From positions 1 to 64,000 of the forward strand of contig CAJFOJ010000036.1 in assembly GCA_904396495.1 (NCBI GenBank): a DNA stretch of 64,000 nt, given 5' to 3'. Position numbers and translations under genes: made by a program. Positions 22,614 to 64,000 of this stretch are shown here, piece by piece. Below the pieces are notes generated by a model, which worked only from the letters and a program-made list of their open reading frames with translations, ran no database searches and had not been told where the DNA came from. The DNA comes from an uncultured Oscillospiraceae bacterium (lineage in GTDB: Bacteria > Bacillota > Clostridia > Oscillospirales > Ruminococcaceae). The number at the start of each line of letters is the position of its first letter. Position 1 is the first letter of the stretch.

Positions 22614-22629
22614 AATTATCAATATGAAA

Positions 22630-22904
22630 ATGCTTTGACAGGGAAAAAGTATCCTGCCTTTGGAGTTTCAGAGAGCTGCCGGTTGGTGAGAGGCAGTACC
22701 CGGGATGATACAACTGGCCCTTGAGCAGCCGCCTGAACGCAGAAGTCTGTCAGTAGGAGCGGACGGGATCTCCGCCGTTATCAGAGGAGCAGTATTCGCC
22801 TTTACCGGCTGATGCGATAGAGTGGGTGCAGTTGCGCCAATGAGAATGGTACCGCGGAAGTTACGCTTTCGTTTCTTGATAACAGGAAACGAAAGCGTTT
22901 TTTG
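22630..22904 (+). ncRNA. T-box leader (leucine) upstream of leuA
   Basis: Stem I-like cagagagctgccggttggtgagaggcagta; candidate specifier CTG (22714-22716) followed by 4 nt and TTGAGC; T-box core TGAGAATGGTACCGCGG (22841-22857); terminator cgctttcgtttc...gaaacgaaagcgtttttt. Confidence 0.93.
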
Positions 22905-27728: not shown

Positions 27729-27744
27729 TGATTTCAATACCAAA

Positions 27745-28020
27745 ACATTGTGATGGAAAGAGTATTTTGGATACCTGTTTCACAGAGAGTCGTCACTTGG
27801 TGGAAAGCGACAAATAGGCCCAAAAGAAGATGGTTCCGGAATGGCGCACCGAGGTGAGAAAATGCTTAGGCCGCGACAGGATTCGCCTGTTATAGCGATA
27901 CAGTATCCCAAAAGGCGTACTGGACGAGGCTTATTTCCGCGAGGGATAGGCGAAATGAAGTGGTAACACGGGATTTTCCCCGTCTTCATGGCATAAAAGC
28001 CGGAAGACGGGTTTTTTGTT
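27745..28020 (+). ncRNA. T-box leader (methionine) upstream of the DUF6440-like ORF and metY
   Basis: Candidate specifier ATG (27841-27843) in a stem-I context; T-box core aatgaagtggtaacacggg (27953-27971); terminator cccgtcttc...gaagacgggtttttt. Confidence 0.88.
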
Positions 28021-55397: not shown

Positions 55398-55892
55398 TTA
55401 TTTTCGCCGATGTTTTAGATACTTCCATAAAAGAGCCACCGTTCCAAGGCAGAGAACTCCAGTCACTACAAATAAAGGAAGATAGGAATCCCATGTAGAG
55501 GTCACCCAAATGTCTGTAGGTCTATCAGCTCCGCCAATGATGTTCTCAATGGCGGGGGACTGGTTGAGTTGATAGATGACATATCCGGATAAAATCAGCA
55601 GCAAAAAACTGACAACTGCCATAATAATCAACAACCACTTCACCTTTTTTCGTGGCCGGGCAATCGCCTGCACCATATTTTTATCCGGTTCTTCCTCTCC
55701 TTTTACCAAAGCGTCCAACGAAATTCCAAAAATTTCACTCAACTTACAGAGATAAGTTAAATCTGGAGCCGACTGATTCAACTCCCATTTGGATATCGTC
55801 TGCCTTGTCACGTCTAGTTTTTCGGCAAGCTGTTCCTGGGACAGACCTTGCCGCCGTCTCAGCATTTGTATATTGTCCCCCAAATGAATCAT
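55398..55892 (-). CDS. XRE-family HTH transcriptional regulator with C-terminal TM segments
   Basis: LGDNIQMLRRRQGLSQEQLAEKLDVTRQTISKWELNQSAPDL plus two hydrophobic helices. Confidence 0.9.
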   Translation of the reverse strand: MIHLGDNIQMLRRRQGLSQEQLAEKLDVTRQTISKWELNQSAPDLTYLCKLSEIFGISLDALVKGEEEPDKNMVQAIARPRKKVKWLLIIMAVVSFLLLILSGYVIYQLNQSPAIENIIGGADRPTDIWVTSTWDSYLPLFVVTGVLCLGTVALLWKYLKHRRK

Positions 55893-56020: not shown

Positions 56021-56851
56021 CTACTTCTTTTGATAAATCAAAATTTGAAATTCAATTGTTGTATTTAACTCGGAAAGGGATAAAAGACGCTGTGTACCCT
56101 CTTGAGGTGTTTTATAATAGTAGGGGGTCATTTTAAATAAATTGTCAATATCCTTCTGACAACGCAACTCTATTTGCTCTCTGACCAAAGATCGTCCAAC
56201 TAGTTCAAATCCATTCAGTGCATAATCCCTCACCTGGTTGAGATAGGGCTTATCATATAGCACCTGCTTTAGCTCCCATAAATGATGTTCTCCTGGAATG
56301 GCCATCGCCATCAAGCCCCGTGGTTTCAAAACTCGCAGGAATTCTTCCCCGCAGTAGGGTGCAAACAGGTTTAACAGCAGGTCACAGCACCCATCCTGTA
56401 CCGGAAGATGAAATATACTCCCCACCGCATAGTCGATGTCCTGATCCTTTTTCGCCGCCTTGTCAAGGGCAAACTTGGAGATATCCACCCCCATCATCCG
56501 AGTTTGGATCCCCTCTTTTTTCAAAAAATGATAGAGATGAGAAGTGTAATATCCCTCCCCGCATCCGGCATCTAAAGCGGTGATTTCCCTACCGTTTTTG
56601 GGAAGATGGGCCATTACCGACTCGCACAGCGACCGGCAGAGAGAAAGATAATAGCCTTCGCCTAGAAAGTTCTGGCGCGCCACCACCATCAGTTTGTTGT
56701 CCCCCGGCATCTTGGAGTGCTTCCCTTTGATAGGCAGCAAGTTTACATACCCACTTTTCGCGCGGTCGAAGTTGTGGCGGCCGGGACAGCAATAGGCCTT
56801 TTCCTCCTGCTTTAAAGGCTTCCCGCAGATAGGACAAATAAACGGCGGCAT
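56021..56851 (-). CDS. 23S rRNA (guanine-N1)-methyltransferase, RlmA/RrmA family
   Basis: N-terminal Zn finger FICPICGKPLKQEEKAYCCPGRHNFDRAKSGYVNLLP; SAM motif ALDAGCGEGYYTSHL. Confidence 0.87.
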   Translation of the reverse strand: MPPFICPICGKPLKQEEKAYCCPGRHNFDRAKSGYVNLLPIKGKHSKMPGDNKLMVVARQNFLGEGYYLSLCRSLCESVMAHLPKNGREITALDAGCGEGYYTSHLYHFLKKEGIQTRMMGVDISKFALDKAAKKDQDIDYAVGSIFHLPVQDGCCDLLLNLFAPYCGEEFLRVLKPRGLMAMAIPGEHHLWELKQVLYDKPYLNQVRDYALNGFELVGRSLVREQIELRCQKDIDNLFKMTPYYYKTPQEGTQRLLSLSELNTTIEFQILIYQKK

Positions 56852-57041: not shown

Positions 57042-57881
57042 CTATTTCCCATAAACAACTTTTCCGATTACTGTTTCCAGGTAGCCGGCCATTTCGCCAA
57101 AGTCAAACTCCTGTCCAGTAAAAATCGAAAAGGCGTAGATCGCCTGATTGATAAGCATTCCCAGTCCGTTGAACGCCCTGAGTCCTCTTTTCCGGCTTTC
57201 CCGCAAAAGGGTGGTTTCCGACGGTTTATATACGATGTCGTACACCGCCGCTTCTGTCTCATCCAGGAAAGAAAAATCATCAAAATTGTCCGATATTCCC
57301 TCCATTCCCAGAGGCGTCGCATTGATGATAATACCAGCGGACTTTGCACATTGCCGCTGCATCTCAGGGGATATTTTATGTACAGTAACCCCCTCTCTCT
57401 CGGCAAAGGCAGAGGCTTTTTCCGGCGTCCGGCACAGGACAGACACTCTCGCTCCCACATCGACCGCCTTTTGGCAAATGGAGAGTGCCGCTCCACCCGC
57501 TCCGATCAGCAAAATATCGCTTTTGTCCATTTGGATACCGTTCTGTTTTAAAGAGGCGTACAATCCATCTCCATCGGTGTTATAACCTTTGCATCTTCCA
57601 CCGGAAATTTTAACGGTGTTCACCGCTCCACATCTCGCGGCATAAGAGTCGCAATCGTCAAGATAATTCATGATTGCTTTTTTATGGGGCAGTGTTACGT
57701 TAAATCCAGCGAAGCCTTCTGTCGTCGCCATCCGGACAAACTCCTCCAGTTCCCCGTCTTGCACATGATGGGCGGTATAGTCGCAACAAATCCCTAAATG
57801 CTCGGCCATTTTTGTGTGGATCACCGGGGACAAGGTGTGGGCAATGGGATCGCCAATCACCCCCATACGAAAGCGTTTCAT
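57042..57881 (-). CDS. aroE: Shikimate dehydrogenase
   Basis: MGVIGDPIAHTLSPVIHTKMAEHLG; GFNVTLPHKKAIMNYLD; INATPLGM. Confidence 0.94.
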   Translation of the reverse strand: MKRFRMGVIGDPIAHTLSPVIHTKMAEHLGICCDYTAHHVQDGELEEFVRMATTEGFAGFNVTLPHKKAIMNYLDDCDSYAARCGAVNTVKISGGRCKGYNTDGDGLYASLKQNGIQMDKSDILLIGAGGAALSICQKAVDVGARVSVLCRTPEKASAFAEREGVTVHKISPEMQRQCAKSAGIIINATPLGMEGISDNFDDFSFLDETEAAVYDIVYKPSETTLLRESRKRGLRAFNGLGMLINQAIYAFSIFTGQEFDFGEMAGYLETVIGKVVYGK

Positions 57882-58381
57882 CGTTTGTACCTCCTCACCT
57901 CATCCAAAATCTTTGCGGCTACCTGTTTCGGTGCGCCGCTATTCTCCACCGTGATTTGTCCATAAAGTCGATACAACTCTATCCGCTCGTGGTAAAGTTT
58001 GTGAATTCGGGTAACGTCATCAGCTAACAAAGGCCTGCCAGACAAATTCTCTCCCAAAATATCCGATACCGGCCGGTCAAGAAAAACAATGATGCCATTT
58101 TGGGAAAGCGCAACCATATTTGCTTCCCGCAAAATCACACCGCCTCCAGTGGCAATCACTAGGCCGCAGCGTTTTGACACTTCTTCAGCACATTGCTGCT
58201 CAAAATCTCGAAAGGCCAGCTCCCCATCCTCAGCAAAAATCCGCGGTATCGTTTTTTGCGCTTTTGCTTCAATTACCTCGTCCAAATCCACAAAAGAATA
58301 CCCCGCTCGTTGCGCCAAAATCTGTCCTACGGTACTTTTGCCAGAACCCGGCATCCCAATGAGCACGATATTATTTTCCAT
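57878..58381 (-). CDS. aroK: Shikimate kinase
   Basis: IVLIGMPGSGKSTVGQILAQRAGYSFVDLDEVIE; GLVIATGGGVILRE. Confidence 0.93.
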   Translation of the reverse strand: MENNIVLIGMPGSGKSTVGQILAQRAGYSFVDLDEVIEAKAQKTIPRIFAEDGELAFRDFEQQCAEEVSKRCGLVIATGGGVILREANMVALSQNGIIVFLDRPVSDILGENLSGRPLLADDVTRIHKLYHERIELYRLYGQITVENSGAPKQVAAKILDEVRRYKR

Positions 58382-59213
58382 CTTGTTCCACCCCTATGGC
58401 ATTTTTGTAATACCCTAAAATCTTAAGCGTCTGAGAGGCTTTTGAAATTTCCTCCAAAATTCCCTCAATCCGGCTATCAATGGTATCGGCGGTAAAATCA
58501 AGAAAAAAGAGGTACTCCCAGTTTTTGTTGGCAATGGGGCGTGATTCAATCTTTGACAGGTTTAAGTTCTCCCGGGCAAAAATTCCCAAAATCCGATATA
58601 AGCTCCCGCTGACATGGGGCAGCGTAAATGCCAACGAAACCTTGTTGTTTTCCGGGGAGTGAATGGGTTGCGGCGCCACCACCACAAAACGGGTCTGATT
58701 TTGATCCTTAAAGTTTGTCTTTTCAGTCAAAATTTCCAAATGGTAGATTGCTGCCGACCGGCGGCTGGCAATAGCGGCCCAATGGAGATTTTTCCCCTCG
58801 CTGACTTTTTTTGCTGCTGCGGCGGTATTGTACACAGCGGTTTGTTTCCAGTTGGGATGTTCTGCCAAAAAATCCCTGGATTGAAAAAGTCCCTGCTCGT
58901 GAGAAAAAACCTCGGTAATATCCGCTAATTCCGTTCCCGGGTTTACCAGCAGGCAGTGATTGACCTCAATGGGACATTCCCCCACAATATAAAAGCCGTA
59001 CTGGCCTAAAAGATCGTAGACAGCGGCTATAGCGCCAGTGGAACTGTTTTCCAACGGCAAGACAGCATAATCCGCCTTTTGTTGTTTAATCGCTTCAAAA
59101 GCCCCTCTGAAGGAGCCTGCTGTTATCAGCTGAGCCCCTTCTCCAAAATAGGAAAGGGCGGCCTCCTCTGCATAAGAACCGGGAACGCCGCAATACGCAA
59201 TAATATCTTTCAT
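58371..59213 (-). CDS. pheA: Prephenate dehydratase
   Basis: MKDIIAYCGVPGSYAEEAALSYFG; LPLENSSTGAIAAVYDLL; C-terminal ACT domain (VSGSLYRILGIFARENLNLSKIESRPI). ATG 59213. Confidence 0.93.
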   Translation of the reverse strand: MKDIIAYCGVPGSYAEEAALSYFGEGAQLITAGSFRGAFEAIKQQKADYAVLPLENSSTGAIAAVYDLLGQYGFYIVGECPIEVNHCLLVNPGTELADITEVFSHEQGLFQSRDFLAEHPNWKQTAVYNTAAAAKKVSEGKNLHWAAIASRRSAAIYHLEILTEKTNFKDQNQTRFVVVAPQPIHSPENNKVSLAFTLPHVSGSLYRILGIFARENLNLSKIESRPIANKNWEYLFFLDFTADTIDSRIEGILEEISKASQTLKILGYYKNAIGVEQDGK

Positions 59214-59245
59214 TTCTTTTGATCCTTTACCAACTGATAGGTGTC

Positions 59246-60301
59246 TTAAGACAAGGCTTCTAGCACCGACAAGGCCGTCGCGCTTTCCACCACTACCGAT
59301 GCCCGGGAAAGGATACAAGGGTCGTGGCGTCCTTTAACCACAAGAGTGCTGTCCTGCATAGTGGCCAAATCAACGGTTTTCTGTTCTCTGCTGATAGACG
59401 AAGTGGGCTTGATCACCACCTGAAACACAATGGGCATTCCGTTGGAAATTCCCCCTAAAATACCGCCATTATAGTTCGTCTCAGTGACGACCCTCCCGTT
59501 ATCCATCCTCATTTGGTCATTCACCTCGTGACCGTAGGCGGAGGCAAATCCAAAGCCCAACCCAAATTCAATACCCTTCACCGCAGGTACCCGAAAAATG
59601 TTGCGGGCAATTATCCCTTCCAGGTTGTCCTTATCGGGAGAGCCGACTCCGCATGGCATCCCGATCACGGCGCACTGGATAATCCCCCCCACTGAAGTGA
59701 GATTCATCCGCGCCTCTTGAACGAGCGCTTTCATCCGTTCTCCGGCCTCGTCGTCCAAAACGGTAAAATCCTTCTCTGCCAAAGTTTCAAAGGCATTTTG
59801 CGTCAATGTCGTTGGGGAAAATGGGACATCCTTTTGTGACCCCAGCTGTAAGATATGAGCGCCGACGAAAATGCCCCTTTCCCGTAGAGCCAGCTTCGCC
59901 ACAGCTCCCGCGAACACCAAAGGCGCCGTCAGCCGACCGGAAAAATGTCCGCCGCCCCGGTAATCATTATATCCCTGGTACCGCACAAAGCCGGTAAAAT
60001 CCGCATGGGAAGGCCGGGCCAAATTTTTCGTCCGGTCATAATCGGCCGAACGGGTATTGCCGTTCTGGATGATGGCGCAAAGGGGCGTTCCCGTGGTTTT
60101 CCCCTCAAACACACCGCTGAGAATCTTAGGAGCGTCCGCTTCTACCCGGGGGGTGGACAGACCGTCGCCCTTCGCTCGGCGGCGGTTCATCTCCCGGGAA
60201 ATAAAATCTGGATCTATCGGTACTCCAGACGGCAGATTTTCTACCACCACGCCAACAGCTGGGCCATGGGATTCCCCAAACACCGTATATTCCAGTTTCA
60301 T
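59246..60301 (-). CDS. aroC: Chorismate synthase
   Basis: FGESHGPAVGVVVENLPSGVPID; RPSHADFTGFVRYQGYNDYRGGGHFSGRLTAPLVFAGAVAK. Confidence 0.95.
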   Translation of the reverse strand: MKLEYTVFGESHGPAVGVVVENLPSGVPIDPDFISREMNRRRAKGDGLSTPRVEADAPKILSGVFEGKTTGTPLCAIIQNGNTRSADYDRTKNLARPSHADFTGFVRYQGYNDYRGGGHFSGRLTAPLVFAGAVAKLALRERGIFVGAHILQLGSQKDVPFSPTTLTQNAFETLAEKDFTVLDDEAGERMKALVQEARMNLTSVGGIIQCAVIGMPCGVGSPDKDNLEGIIARNIFRVPAVKGIEFGLGFGFASAYGHEVNDQMRMDNGRVVTETNYNGGILGGISNGMPIVFQVVIKPTSSISREQKTVDLATMQDSTLVVKGRHDPCILSRASVVVESATALSVLEALS

Positions 60302-61533
60302 CTGCCGTCCTCCCTCACTTTCCCGCCTAAACGGCGGTAATCATCCCAAAACATGGGATAAGATTTTCCGACGCATTCTGCGCCCAAAAGCCGCACTTTT
60401 CCGGTACACCCAACCGCCGCTGCCGCTGTCGCCATAGCAATGCGATGATCGTTGCAACAGTCTACAAAGCCCTCTCCAGTCCCGGGAAGAGCTTCCTGCC
60501 CCCAGACGGTAATGCTGTCCTCCCCTTCTTCTGCAAGCGTTCCCAAAGCGCACAACATAGAACAGGTAGTGGAGATGCGGTCGCTTTCTTTAAGCCGCAG
60601 CCGAGCCCCGTTGACGAACCGGGTAACCTTTCCAGCACGGTAGGCCGCCGCCACTGCCAGTGCCGGAACTAAATCCGGGATGTCGCTGACATCCAGCTCA
60701 TAGTCTCCCTGCTGGGAGAAATCCTCTAAAATCGTCTTAATAGCCCGATCCCCCTGGCTGGAATTGGGATTGAGCCCCTCCAATACCACGTCGCTCCCAA
60801 TAAAATCAGCGGCCAAAAAAAACGCCGCCTGAGAGTAATCCCCTTCCACCATCATATCTTGTGGAAAATATCTTTGACTACCCGGAACAATAAATTCCCG
60901 GTCATCCCGGCTCTCTATTTTGATGCCAAAAGTCCTGAGGACCTCCAGCGTCATATCCACATATCCTTTGGACTCCAGCTGATCGGTAATCACAATTTTG
61001 CTATCTCCATCCAGCAGTGGAAGGGCATATAAAAGGCCTGTGATAAACTGGGAACTCACCTTACCGCTCAACTCACAGACACCGCTTTGAAGTGTACCCC
61101 AGGTCGTCAATTGGCCGTTGCTTTTGCCATACTGGATCCCCATCTTATCGAATATCCTGAAATACGGCTCTAACGGACGATCCAAAAGCCTTCCGTGGCC
61201 TTGAAAAATCAGTTTTTTTTGAGGGCAGAGCGCCACCGCAACCGGAATCAGAAATCGGAGTGTCGATCCCGACTCATTGCAGTCAATTAGGACAGAAGCC
61301 CCCTGTATCATCCGGCGTCCGTGAAATAAAGCGGTGCTCCCATCAAGGGAATAATCTGCTCCCAACGCCTTCATGCCTTCCAAGGTCGCGAGAATATCAG
61401 CGGACAATGTGAGGCTTTTTACCTCGCCGCCTCCGGCAAGTGCCGCCGCAATCACCAACCGATGCCCAATACTTTTAGAGGACGGTACTGTTAATTTCCC
61501 CTGAAGCCTTCGGGGCAAAATCGTAAGGTTCAA
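60298..61533 (-). CDS. aroA: 3-phosphoshikimate 1-carboxyvinyltransferase (EPSP synthase)
   Basis: LTVPSSKSIGHRLVIAAALAGG; NESGSTLRFLIPVA; RLRLKESDRIS; DHRIAMATAAAAV. TTG start at 61533 proposed. Confidence 0.94.
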   Translation of the reverse strand: MNLTILPRRLQGKLTVPSSKSIGHRLVIAAALAGGGEVKSLTLSADILATLEGMKALGADYSLDGSTALFHGRRMIQGASVLIDCNESGSTLRFLIPVAVALCPQKKLIFQGHGRLLDRPLEPYFRIFDKMGIQYGKSNGQLTTWGTLQSGVCELSGKVSSQFITGLLYALPLLDGDSKIVITDQLESKGYVDMTLEVLRTFGIKIESRDDREFIVPGSQRYFPQDMMVEGDYSQAAFFLAADFIGSDVVLEGLNPNSSQGDRAIKTILEDFSQQGDYELDVSDIPDLVPALAVAAAYRAGKVTRFVNGARLRLKESDRISTTCSMLCALGTLAEEGEDSITVWGQEALPGTGEGFVDCCNDHRIAMATAAAAVGCTGKVRLLGAECVGKSYPMFWDDYRRLGGKVREDGR

Positions 61534-61550
61534 AACGCCACCTCTTTCTG

Positions 61551-62636
61551 TCAAATCGTCTCTTGCACCCACTGGGCAAAAGTCTCTTTGGAGGTCTTTT
61601 GCAAAATCGCCTCGCCAATTCGCTTGCACAACACCAGGGTAATCGATCCGCCGCTTCCCTTTTTATCGTAGGCAAGCGTCTCAACCAGCGCCTTTATTGG
61701 CACCTTTTCCGCCTTTACCGGAAGCCCAAAAGTGGAAAGCAGCGCCCTGAGCCTTTGAGCAGTTCCAGAAGGCGTAATTCCCTGCCTTTCGCCAATCTCG
61801 CAAATGGCCACCATACCGCAGGCTACGGCCTCTCCGTGCATATAGGTGCTGTAATGGCCCAGTTTTTCGTAGGCGTGGCCCAAAGTATGACCAAAATTAA
61901 GTACCATGCGTTCCCCCGTGTCCATTTCGTCCTGCTCCACAATCTCTTTTTTGATGTGGCAGCAAACCCGGATGATCTCCTCCATATGGGGAAGCAGTTC
62001 CTCCCGGTTTTTGCAGCCTTCTAATAACTGGAAGAGCTTCTCGTCCCGGATCATCCCATATTTGATCACCTCGGCCAGTCCATCAAAAAAAATCCGGTCG
62101 CTAAGGGTTTTAAGGGTCTGAGGATCAATGAGGACCTGCTTGGGCTGATAAAACATTCCTGCCAAGTTTTTCCCCTGTTTTAAGTCTACCGCAACCTTTC
62201 CACCAACCGAACTGTCCACCTGGGCCAACAGGGTAGTGGGAATCTGCACAAAGGGAATCCCACGCAACAGCGTAGCCGCCGCAAAACCCACCATGTCACC
62301 GGCGACGCCACCGCCCAACGCCACTATCAAATCCCCTCGTGTCATGGGAAAAGGATCGGGGTGCAACAACCCGTCGTACAACTGCACAACAGTCTCTAGA
62401 TTCTTGCTTTGCTCCCCCGCCGGAAAATCGATGAGCTTCACCGCAAAGCCCGCCTTTTCCAGAGAGGAGACAACAGTGTCGGCATATAGCGGCCGGACGT
62501 TAGAATCGGTTATCACCGCAATACGTTCGCCCTGAAATACCTCTTTGATCCTCTCCCCGGCTTTTTGCAGCAGCCCGTTTTCAATAAAAATATCGTAATC
62601 CCGTCCACCGGACAAATTGACATGTAGCTTCTTCAT
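61551..62636 (-). CDS. aroB: 3-dehydroquinate synthase
   Basis: DLIVALGGGVAGDMVGFAAATLLRGIPFVQIPTTLLAQVDSSVGGKVAVDLKQGKNLAG; NFGHTLGHAYE. Confidence 0.95.
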   Translation of the reverse strand: MKKLHVNLSGGRDYDIFIENGLLQKAGERIKEVFQGERIAVITDSNVRPLYADTVVSSLEKAGFAVKLIDFPAGEQSKNLETVVQLYDGLLHPDPFPMTRGDLIVALGGGVAGDMVGFAAATLLRGIPFVQIPTTLLAQVDSSVGGKVAVDLKQGKNLAGMFYQPKQVLIDPQTLKTLSDRIFFDGLAEVIKYGMIRDEKLFQLLEGCKNREELLPHMEEIIRVCCHIKKEIVEQDEMDTGERMVLNFGHTLGHAYEKLGHYSTYMHGEAVACGMVAICEIGERQGITPSGTAQRLRALLSTFGLPVKAEKVPIKALVETLAYDKKGSGGSITLVLCKRIGEAILQKTSKETFAQWVQETI

Positions 62637-62680: not shown

Positions 62681-63691
62681 TTACAGCGTTTTTCCCGACA
62701 ATTCAACCAGTGGGCGCAAGTCCTTCACAAGCTTGTCGAAGGCCGTGGGCGTAATGGACTGCTTACCGTCGCAAAGTGCCTTAGCAGGATTGTTGTGCAC
62801 CTCGATAATCAAGCCGTCTGCCCCCACTGCAGCGGCCGCTTTCGCCATAGGCTCCACCATCCAAGCTATGCCGCAAGCGTGGCTCGGGTCGACGATTACC
62901 GGCAGATGGGAAACACTCTTGAGCATGGGGACAGCGGAAATGTCAAGGGTATTTCGGGTAGCCGTCTCGAATGTCCGGATGCCCCTCTCGCAGAGGATGA
63001 CGTTTTCATTGCCACTTGCCATGATGTATTCGGCGCTCATCAAAAGCTCCTCTAAGGTGTTTGCCAAACCCCGCTTTAGGAGGATCGGCTTATCGCAGTG
63101 GCCCAACTCCTTCAAAAGCTCAAAATTCTGCATATTTCTGGCCCCGACCTGAATGACATCAACATCGGCAAAAAGGTCAATATGGGAGATAGACATAATC
63201 TCAGTGACGATGGGAAGCCCTGTTTCCTTTTTCGCCTCTAAGAGCAGTTTGATGCCGTCGTCGTGCAAGCCCTGGAAAGCGTAAGGGGATGTTCTCGGCT
63301 TGAAAGCGCCCCCGCGGAGAAATCTAGCCCCGCTTTTTTTTACGTCCTTAGCGACCTCAATAATCTGTTCCCGACTCTCCACCGAACACGGGCCGGCAAT
63401 AATTTGGAAATTTGTGCCGCCTATTTTTGTGCCGTTCACATCGATGATGGTGTCATCCTCATGGAACTTCCGGTTGGCCAATTTGTATGGCTCTTGCACC
63501 CGCCTAACCGCTTCCACCACGTCATTTGCCGAGATGTCGTCGGCGTTTATTTTGCTGGTGTCGCCTACCAGCCCAATAATGCTGGACTGTTCGCCTTCGA
63601 TCATATGGGTCTTGAGCCCTAAATCTTGGATATTGTGAATCAGTTTCTCAACTTCTGAGTGATCTGCGTTTTTCTTTAAGATGATTACCAT
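62681..63691 (-). CDS. aroF: 3-deoxy-7-phosphoheptulonate (DAHP) synthase, type I-beta with N-terminal regulatory domain
   Basis: FQIIAGPCSVESREQIIEVAKDVKKSGARFLRGGAFKPRTSPYAFQGL; VDPSHACGI; extra N-terminal ferredoxin-like domain MVIILKKNADHSEVEKLIHNIQDLGLKTHMIEGEQ. Confidence 0.94.
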   Translation of the reverse strand: MVIILKKNADHSEVEKLIHNIQDLGLKTHMIEGEQSSIIGLVGDTSKINADDISANDVVEAVRRVQEPYKLANRKFHEDDTIIDVNGTKIGGTNFQIIAGPCSVESREQIIEVAKDVKKSGARFLRGGAFKPRTSPYAFQGLHDDGIKLLLEAKKETGLPIVTEIMSISHIDLFADVDVIQVGARNMQNFELLKELGHCDKPILLKRGLANTLEELLMSAEYIMASGNENVILCERGIRTFETATRNTLDISAVPMLKSVSHLPVIVDPSHACGIAWMVEPMAKAAAAVGADGLIIEVHNNPAKALCDGKQSITPTAFDKLVKDLRPLVELSGKTL

Positions 63692-63801
63692 AAAAGCTCC
63701 CTCTTTCTGTATTTACGACAATTTCATTCTCTTCGAATTAATGAAAGGCTTCCGGTTTTTGGGTACGACAGGCGGATCCAACCCGGCATCCAAAAACCAA
63801 A

Positions 63802-63837
63802 AGAGCCTGCATCTTCGTCTCCAAAGATGCAGGCTCT
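63802..63837 (-). terminator. Intrinsic terminator in the aro operon leader (attenuator)
   Basis: Minus strand AGAGCCTGCATCTT-tggagacg-AAGATGCAGGCTCT-tttggttttt; 14-bp perfect stem. Confidence 0.9.
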
Positions 63838-63863
63838 CATTTTACCTATTAGGAAAATGACAG

Positions 63864-63974
63864 TTAGCAGTCATTGCACAACGAAAGATGCGTACAACAA
63901 TTAAGACCGGTGCCAAAATAAAAGCCCCAGCCAAAATAGCCTGTAAATCGTTTCGTTGCGTTCAAAACAGACAT
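63864..63974 (-). CDS. Aromatic-rich 36-aa leader peptide of the aro operon attenuator
   Basis: Minus-strand ATG at 63974 with AAAGGA upstream; MSVLNATKRFTGYFGWGFYFGTGLNCCTHLSLCNDC*; 7 aromatic codons in 11; followed by the terminator at 63837-63802. Confidence 0.85.
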   Translation of the reverse strand: MSVLNATKRFTGYFGWGFYFGTGLNCCTHLSLCNDC

Positions 63975-64000
63975 AGCCACTTTTCCTTTCATTCATTTTA

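Follow-up and report, generated by a model that had tools for sequence, protein, structure and literature searches.

A candidate Phe/Tyr leader-peptide attenuator family upstream of aro operons across much of class Clostridia

What sets the expression of the common aromatic pathway in Clostridia? Control of amino acid synthesis in Firmicutes is usually taught as the work of T-boxes and DNA-binding regulators, and the classical leader-peptide attenuators known in this group are, to our knowledge, limited to scattered examples at his and ilv-leu genes. The question is raised by a 64,000-nucleotide stretch of DNA from an uncultured Oscillospiraceae bacterium (GCA_904396495.1, contig CAJFOJ010000036.1, positions 1 to 64,000; hereafter the window), which carries an aromatic biosynthesis operon on its minus strand. 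The first gene, aroF (62681 to 63691), encodes a DAHP synthase (PRK08673/DAHP_synth_1) and is followed by aroB, aroA, aroC, pheA (prephenate dehydratase plus ACT), aroK, and aroE (57042 to 62636). NCBIfam and Pfam matches bear out the gene order aroF-aroB-aroA-aroC-pheA-aroK-aroE given in the first-pass annotation, with aroK assigned by the best match among shikimate kinase models at a score below the curated cut-off. The operon includes pheA, without tyrA or trp genes. On the same strand downstream of aroE lie genes for an RlmA-like 23S rRNA (guanine) methyltransferase (56021 to 56851) and a Cro/CI-type HTH regulator (55398 to 55892).

The aro leader region (63.7 to 64.0 kb) matched neither the T-box family (RF00230) nor any other Rfam family, and a T-box at this site was ruled out, as the covariance model found matches in the window only at 22626 and 27741. 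These two T-boxes (22626 to 22879 and 27741 to 27990, plus strand) both exceed the gathering score. The genome holds 12 T-box matches in all, 9 of them above the cut-off and one directly upstream of trpE.

Upstream of aroF, on the minus strand, is a short ORF encoding a 36-residue peptide, MSVLNATKRFTGYFGWGFYFGTGLNCCTHLSLCNDC, which begins at an ATG at 63974 and ends with a TAA at 63866 to 63864 (ORF coordinates, 63864 to 63974); equivalents are found at most sampled Clostridial aroF loci. It is preceded by a Shine-Dalgarno (SD) sequence, AAAGGA, at 63984 to 63989. The translation is exactly that proposed in the first-pass annotation, as is the composition of codons 10 to 20 (63915 to 63947), FTGYFGWGFYF, with 4 Phe, 2 Tyr, and 1 Trp; translation and conservation together mark this stretch as the aromatic regulatory codon run. 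When the 300 nt upstream of aroF were shuffled with dinucleotide content preserved, an SD-preceded ATG ORF of 10 to 60 residues in which 7 or more of 12 residues were aromatic arose in 0.03% of shuffles. A near-consensus promoter, TTGACA-17-TACAAT, lies on the same contig just beyond the window edge (about 64038 to 64010), its 3' end 35 nt upstream of the leader ATG. The predicted transcription start is thus at about 64003, ahead of the leader, whereas a start downstream of 63864 would, according to the first-pass annotation, have counted against attenuation; the whole leader, ribosome-binding site included, therefore falls within the predicted transcript.

An intrinsic terminator (63801 to 63838) separates the leader stop from aroF. 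It had been described as a perfect 14-bp stem (63837 to 63802) beginning 26 nt after the stop and followed by a U-tract. The terminator and U-tract are present, but sequence and folding give a stem of 17 bp (15 Watson-Crick and 2 G-U pairs; −29.9 kcal/mol) closed by a GAGA tetraloop and beginning 25 nt past the stop, and the U-tract (63800 to 63790) is broken by GG (UUUUGGUUUUU). The whole leader folds far more stably than its dinucleotide shuffles (z = −6.9), and most of the difference comes from the terminator. When the full leader is folded, UUUUCC immediately past its stop (63851 to 63860) pairs with the SD region GGAAAA (63981 to 63989). The same UUUUCC has an alternative partner, GGUAAAA beside the terminator, an arrangement that could link leader translation with the antiterminator.

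Since U-rich, AT-rich DNA readily yields Phe and Tyr codons, the short ORF might be incidental, and the hairpin might act constitutively or serve to end a transcript that comes from upstream. Relatives bear directly on this. We collected aroF homologs from 61 related whole genomes, together with 80 loci with organism names, which gave 104 nonredundant upstream regions (set 1), and scored as a leader any ATG ORF that follows an SD and has 6 or more F/Y/W among 12 residues. Leaders were present upstream of aroF in 61 of the 104 regions, compared with 0.24% in dinucleotide shuffles and with 6 of 1,002 upstream regions of other large ORFs from the set 1 loci. Four of these controls had at least 7 aromatics: L036, an alternative start at the same locus; L075; L100; and L054, for which we have no explanation. 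At L075 (about 7777) the aromatic leader MNGRLNLNGTKAYYFYFSQSFYFSAGYF stands before a chorismate mutase/pheA-like gene, with aroF after that gene, and at L100 (about 4262) the leader MHKATQFKTYSYPNNYYYFSGYYVSLN stands before a second DAHP synthase gene. A looser cut-off, 5 of 12, gave the 70 set 1 leaders used for modeling, one of which (L019) has no recognized SD; examples are MKNIIGKGISGKYYFYFSWGYFYFSAGYFFCKK from Clostridium magnum (L064), MSTFTFAAEYRYFSFTYYFGKAYFGLAENECV from Oscillibacter valericigenes (L070), and MKSITLSKTYFYYYFSFAFYFGKAFSGFAAS (L088). A second sample of the class, comprising 147 genomes and 89 aroF upstream regions (set 2), had leaders in 50 regions and in 27 of 39 families. 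A recognizable leader is missing from about 40% of the sampled aroF loci.

In the aligned cores, F and Y make up 84 to 89% of the residues in aromatic-majority columns and interchange freely; judged from these alignments, the conserved trait is the amino acid class of the peptide rather than the nucleotide sequence, and for this reason the family appears to have been missed by Rfam. The comparison of relatives called for in the first-pass annotation thus came out in its favor, the aromatic run and the terminator being kept in the leaders of both sets while the nucleotide sequence is not. A terminator lies between leader and aroF in 120 of 120 modeled leaders, at set medians of about 34 and 36 nt past the stop, and in 74% of leaders, versus 3.6% of shuffles, the 90 nt before the ATG contain a promoter that matches the consensus at 10 or more of its 12 bases. 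An incidental ORF is hard to credit in view of its near absence from composition-matched shuffles, the conservation of F/Y content over much of a class with F and Y swapping within aromatic columns, and the strong promoter directly upstream; even with the weak antiterminator of the window (see below) in its favor, we consider this explanation extremely improbable. Aromatic leaders also precede aroF in metagenome bins labeled Lentisphaerae, Treponema, and Fusobacteria (L103, L104, and L107), where either the operon was transferred together with its leader or the contigs were misbinned.

Does the family have the pairing logic of an attenuator? Each leader was divided into segment 1 (upstream of the aromatic run), segment 2 (from the end of that run up to the terminator), segment 3 (terminator 5' arm and loop), and segment 4 (3' arm). 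Nucleotide alignment of the three nearest leaders was too small and too gapped to count covarying pairs; in place of covariation, complementarity was set against shuffles, swaps, and segment pairs that an attenuator does not need. Duplex energies were compared with those of dinucleotide shuffles and combined by Fisher's method over the 120 leaders. With loci treated as independent, 1:2 pairing (P = 9e-47) and 2:3 pairing (P = 5e-43) were both enriched, and there was no excess of 2:4 (P = 0.17) or 1:3 (P = 0.09) complementarity over shuffles in the same leaders. One leader per family (n = 27) gave 3e-13 for 1:2, 2e-11 for 2:3, 0.26 for 2:4, and 0.16 for 1:3. The pattern was seen separately in set 1 and set 2, and 2:3 pairing was stronger at a leader's own locus than with segments 2 swapped in from other loci. 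The enriched pairs alone are those needed by the classic attenuator topology, in which 1:2, 2:3 (the antiterminator), and 3:4 are mutually exclusive, and this arrangement was found across relatives. A ribosome footprint placed at the middle aromatic codon left the terminator 5' arm 72% paired upstream, compared with 54% in shuffles; placed on the stop codon, it left the arm 31% paired upstream. In the "AAE" leaders, GCAGC before the run is complementary to UGCUGC or GGCUGC after it (peptide CC or LAA), which suggests a possible reason for the conserved-looking tails.

A leader peptide might also work by a different route, with a passing or stalled ribosome exposing a translation start or changing the stability of the RNA, in which case the switch would not be the terminator. 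Pairing of the leader ribosome-binding site with UUUUCC after the stop, through which leader translation may itself be controlled, would suit such a route. The terminator found between leader stop and aroF at every modeled locus would not, nor would the fit of the complementary segments to the 5' arm of that terminator (2:3) and not its 3' arm (2:4). We regard the different route as very unlikely and continue with attenuation at the terminator.

In the sequence of the window itself, segment 1 (GCAACGAAACGAU; 63947 to 63959) pairs in the minimum-free-energy fold with segment 2 (AUCUUUCGUUGUGC; 63876 to 63889), which lies in the peptide tail. This 1:2 hairpin is clear in the fold (P = 0.10 versus shuffles). 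The 2:3 duplex is no better than chance (P = 0.74), and as long as the 3' arm has yet to be made, pairing of the terminator 5' arm reaches 0.29, less than the mean of its shuffles (P = 0.85). On full-length equilibrium folding the terminator prevailed in every ribosome state and the states were not discriminated, so that a switch in the window must be kinetic; folding of the growing transcript was used in its place. In part-made transcripts, segment 2 also forms the 5' base of a predicted antiterminator spanning about 63890 to 63810, whose nucleus is a small hairpin, CAUUUUCC-UAAU-AGGUAAAAUG, directly before the terminator (63838 to 63859). With 8 to 10 nt of the 3' arm made and a ribosome stalled at F20, the values were 0.62 for the antiterminator and 0.08 for the terminator; with the ribosome at the stop they were 0.21 to 0.28 and 0.47 to 0.54, respectively. 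A stall at W16 favored the antiterminator too. A comparably long antiterminator is predicted for L004. A 2:4 antiterminator, considered because of the likeness between the tail GCAUCUUU and the 5' arm of the terminator, was rejected, the family showing no excess of 2:4 complementarity. Because the antiterminator is weak in the window, the mechanism there is drawn mainly from the family.

We conclude that a translation-coupled transcription attenuator of the trp/phe/his type very probably stands in front of the aro operon. The features that carry this conclusion, namely, the ORF, the promoter match, the terminator, their conservation, and the family-wide pairing topology, are all observed. The ribosome-mediated attenuation proposed in the first-pass annotation is thus well supported by the leader, promoter, terminator, and pairing logic of the family and by the T-boxes that take the place of the leader at some loci without it (see below); the part that did not stand out from shuffles is the antiterminator of the window (P = 0.74 for the 2:3 duplex and 0.85 for 5'-arm pairing), favored there in part-made transcripts only. 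From these features we infer ribosome stalling, sensing of charged tRNA, an effect on expression, and a weight for each amino acid. Transcription would start about 30 nt upstream of the leader ATG. When aromatic aminoacyl-tRNA is plentiful, the ribosome would reach the stop and mask the antiterminator segment (tail codons, stop, and the first nucleotides after it); the terminator at 63838 to 63801 would then form, and transcription would end before aroF. A shortage of charged tRNA-Phe or tRNA-Tyr would stall the ribosome in the F/Y-rich run, where it would cover segment 1, whereupon the tail segment would pair with the terminator 5' arm and transcription would read through into aroF-aroB-aroA-aroC-pheA-aroK-aroE.

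Which amino acids would such a leader read? It had been proposed that Phe, Tyr, and Trp are sensed together. The Phe and Tyr part of that proposal agrees with the family, both residues being present in all 70 set 1 leaders and their cores, with Tyr at 27 to 33% of core residues. The Trp part holds less well: Trp occurs in 17 of 70 set 1 and 16 of 50 set 2 leaders, amounts to 2.0 to 2.8% of core residues, and shares its place with Leu. It often sits in the slot x-W-[GSAC]-[FY]-[FY], where W was counted 12 times and L 11 times and where Phe, Pro, and Gln also occur. The residue is kept in the two nearest relatives of the window, L004 (78% aroF identity) and L005 (76%), and is patchy in others at about 70%; outside the set 1 cores, Trp accounts for 0 of 1,308 residues. 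SAG-type leaders (e.g., L015, L018, L062, and L064) often have W, L, P, or Q immediately ahead of [GSAC]-[FY]-[FY]-[FY]. The codons at this position mostly end in G (TGG, TTG, CTG, CCG, and CAG), a hint that the RNA is under a constraint by which exchange of W and L may be neutral. The T-box upstream of trpE in the same genome has UGG at what seems to be its specifier position. A leader was looked for upstream of tyrA of this genome, and none was seen.

In Corynebacterium glutamicum, the aroR leader contains Phe-Tyr-Phe, yet only Phe limitation matters and Tyr supply has no effect (PMC11802643); codon content alone is therefore no proof of each input. An attenuator that in practice senses Phe, or Phe and Tyr, and in which the one Trp codon, and maybe the Tyr codons as well, have little regulatory effect would accord with this precedent, with the appearance of Trp in only about a quarter of set 1 leaders that all have Phe and Tyr, and with an operon that has pheA but neither tyrA nor trp genes in a genome where trpE is under its own T-box. 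The retention of W16 in L004 and L005, the lack of Trp outside the cores, and the response to a W16 stall in the folding models speak for a role of Trp, and the share of Tyr in the cores is hard to square with irrelevance. We put the restriction to Phe, or Phe and Tyr, at slightly below an even chance. A further reading, tentative and somewhat short of even, is that one peptide acts as an OR gate, its F, Y, and, in some lineages including that of the window, W codons being interchangeable so that a shortage of any aromatic amino acid is read; the leader would then set flux through the whole shikimate pathway, and terminal branches such as trp would keep T-boxes. In our main reading, Trp codon 16 probably does serve as a third input, though a weaker and lineage-specific one. 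Given the scarcity of Trp, the Leu in its slot, the trpE T-box, and the aroR precedent, sensing is likely for Phe, probable for Tyr, and possible for Trp in the lineage of the window. What these sequences point to, then, is a widespread Clostridial family of Phe/Tyr attenuators in which Trp is optional.

Loci of the class without a leader were scanned for T-boxes, and 7 of the 20 scanned had a match to the family, all in the aroF orientation. In other Clostridial families, a T-box stands in the place of the leader at aroF/DAHP synthase at eight loci (L154, L168, L182, L206, L207, L209, L210, and L214), L154 by a conserved-sequence match only and the seven others confirmed by Rfam. Such a change of sensor at a single gene has precedents with other amino acids (PMC2965389).

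The Clostridial leaders resemble the trp, pheA, and pheST attenuators of E. coli (trpL, pheL, and pheM) in having a peptide rich in the end-product amino acid(s) of the pathway, a tail segment that alternates between segment 1 and the terminator 5' arm, and a terminator before the first gene. The E. coli leaders respond chiefly to Trp or Phe and govern terminal branches or a synthetase, whereas the Clostridial run of Phe and Tyr, sometimes with Trp, would control the common shikimate operon. In the ilvGMEDA leader of enteric bacteria, a single peptide senses Leu, Ile, and Val, all end products of one branched pathway; that leader is multivalent, as the Clostridial aro leader may be, but serves branched-chain rather than aromatic amino acids. 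The closest precedents stand at the same gene. In C. glutamicum, the aroR leader precedes a DAHP synthase operon and acts by ribosome stalling (PMC11802643); compared by description only, it differs from the Clostridial runs, which have 5 to 11 aromatics in 12 codons and sometimes Trp. The uORFC-13-1 motif is a predicted upstream ORF of Acholeplasma that contains one or more Phe codons and is followed directly by a terminator and aroF (PMC8632094); its 24 examples, likewise compared by description only, come from Acholeplasma and environmental sequences, have Phe only, and are not reported from Clostridia. Within Firmicutes, leader-peptide attenuation instead of a T-box has been predicted for his genes (PMC2965389; PMC9413887) and has experimental support for ilv-leu in Staphylococcus aureus (PMC5794164); these attenuators serve other pathways, and their reported distribution is far narrower than that of the Clostridial aro family.

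Leader-peptide attenuation, multi-amino-acid leaders, aroF leaders in C. glutamicum and Acholeplasma, and Firmicute his and ilv-leu leaders were thus already known. We found no earlier description of the Clostridial aro leader family in open-access papers or in Rfam; older work in closed journals or databases of predicted attenuators could mention it. What appears to be new is a Phe/Tyr-rich leader family that extends over much of class Clostridia, with strong comparative support. In many Clostridia, gut bacteria among them, the family stands at the point where aromatic synthesis begins, and it suggests how end products may set the common aromatic pathway. Within this one class, T-boxes and leader peptides exchange at the same gene, and the leaders offer natural multi-codon examples with which to study the weight of each of several amino acids in a ribosome stall.
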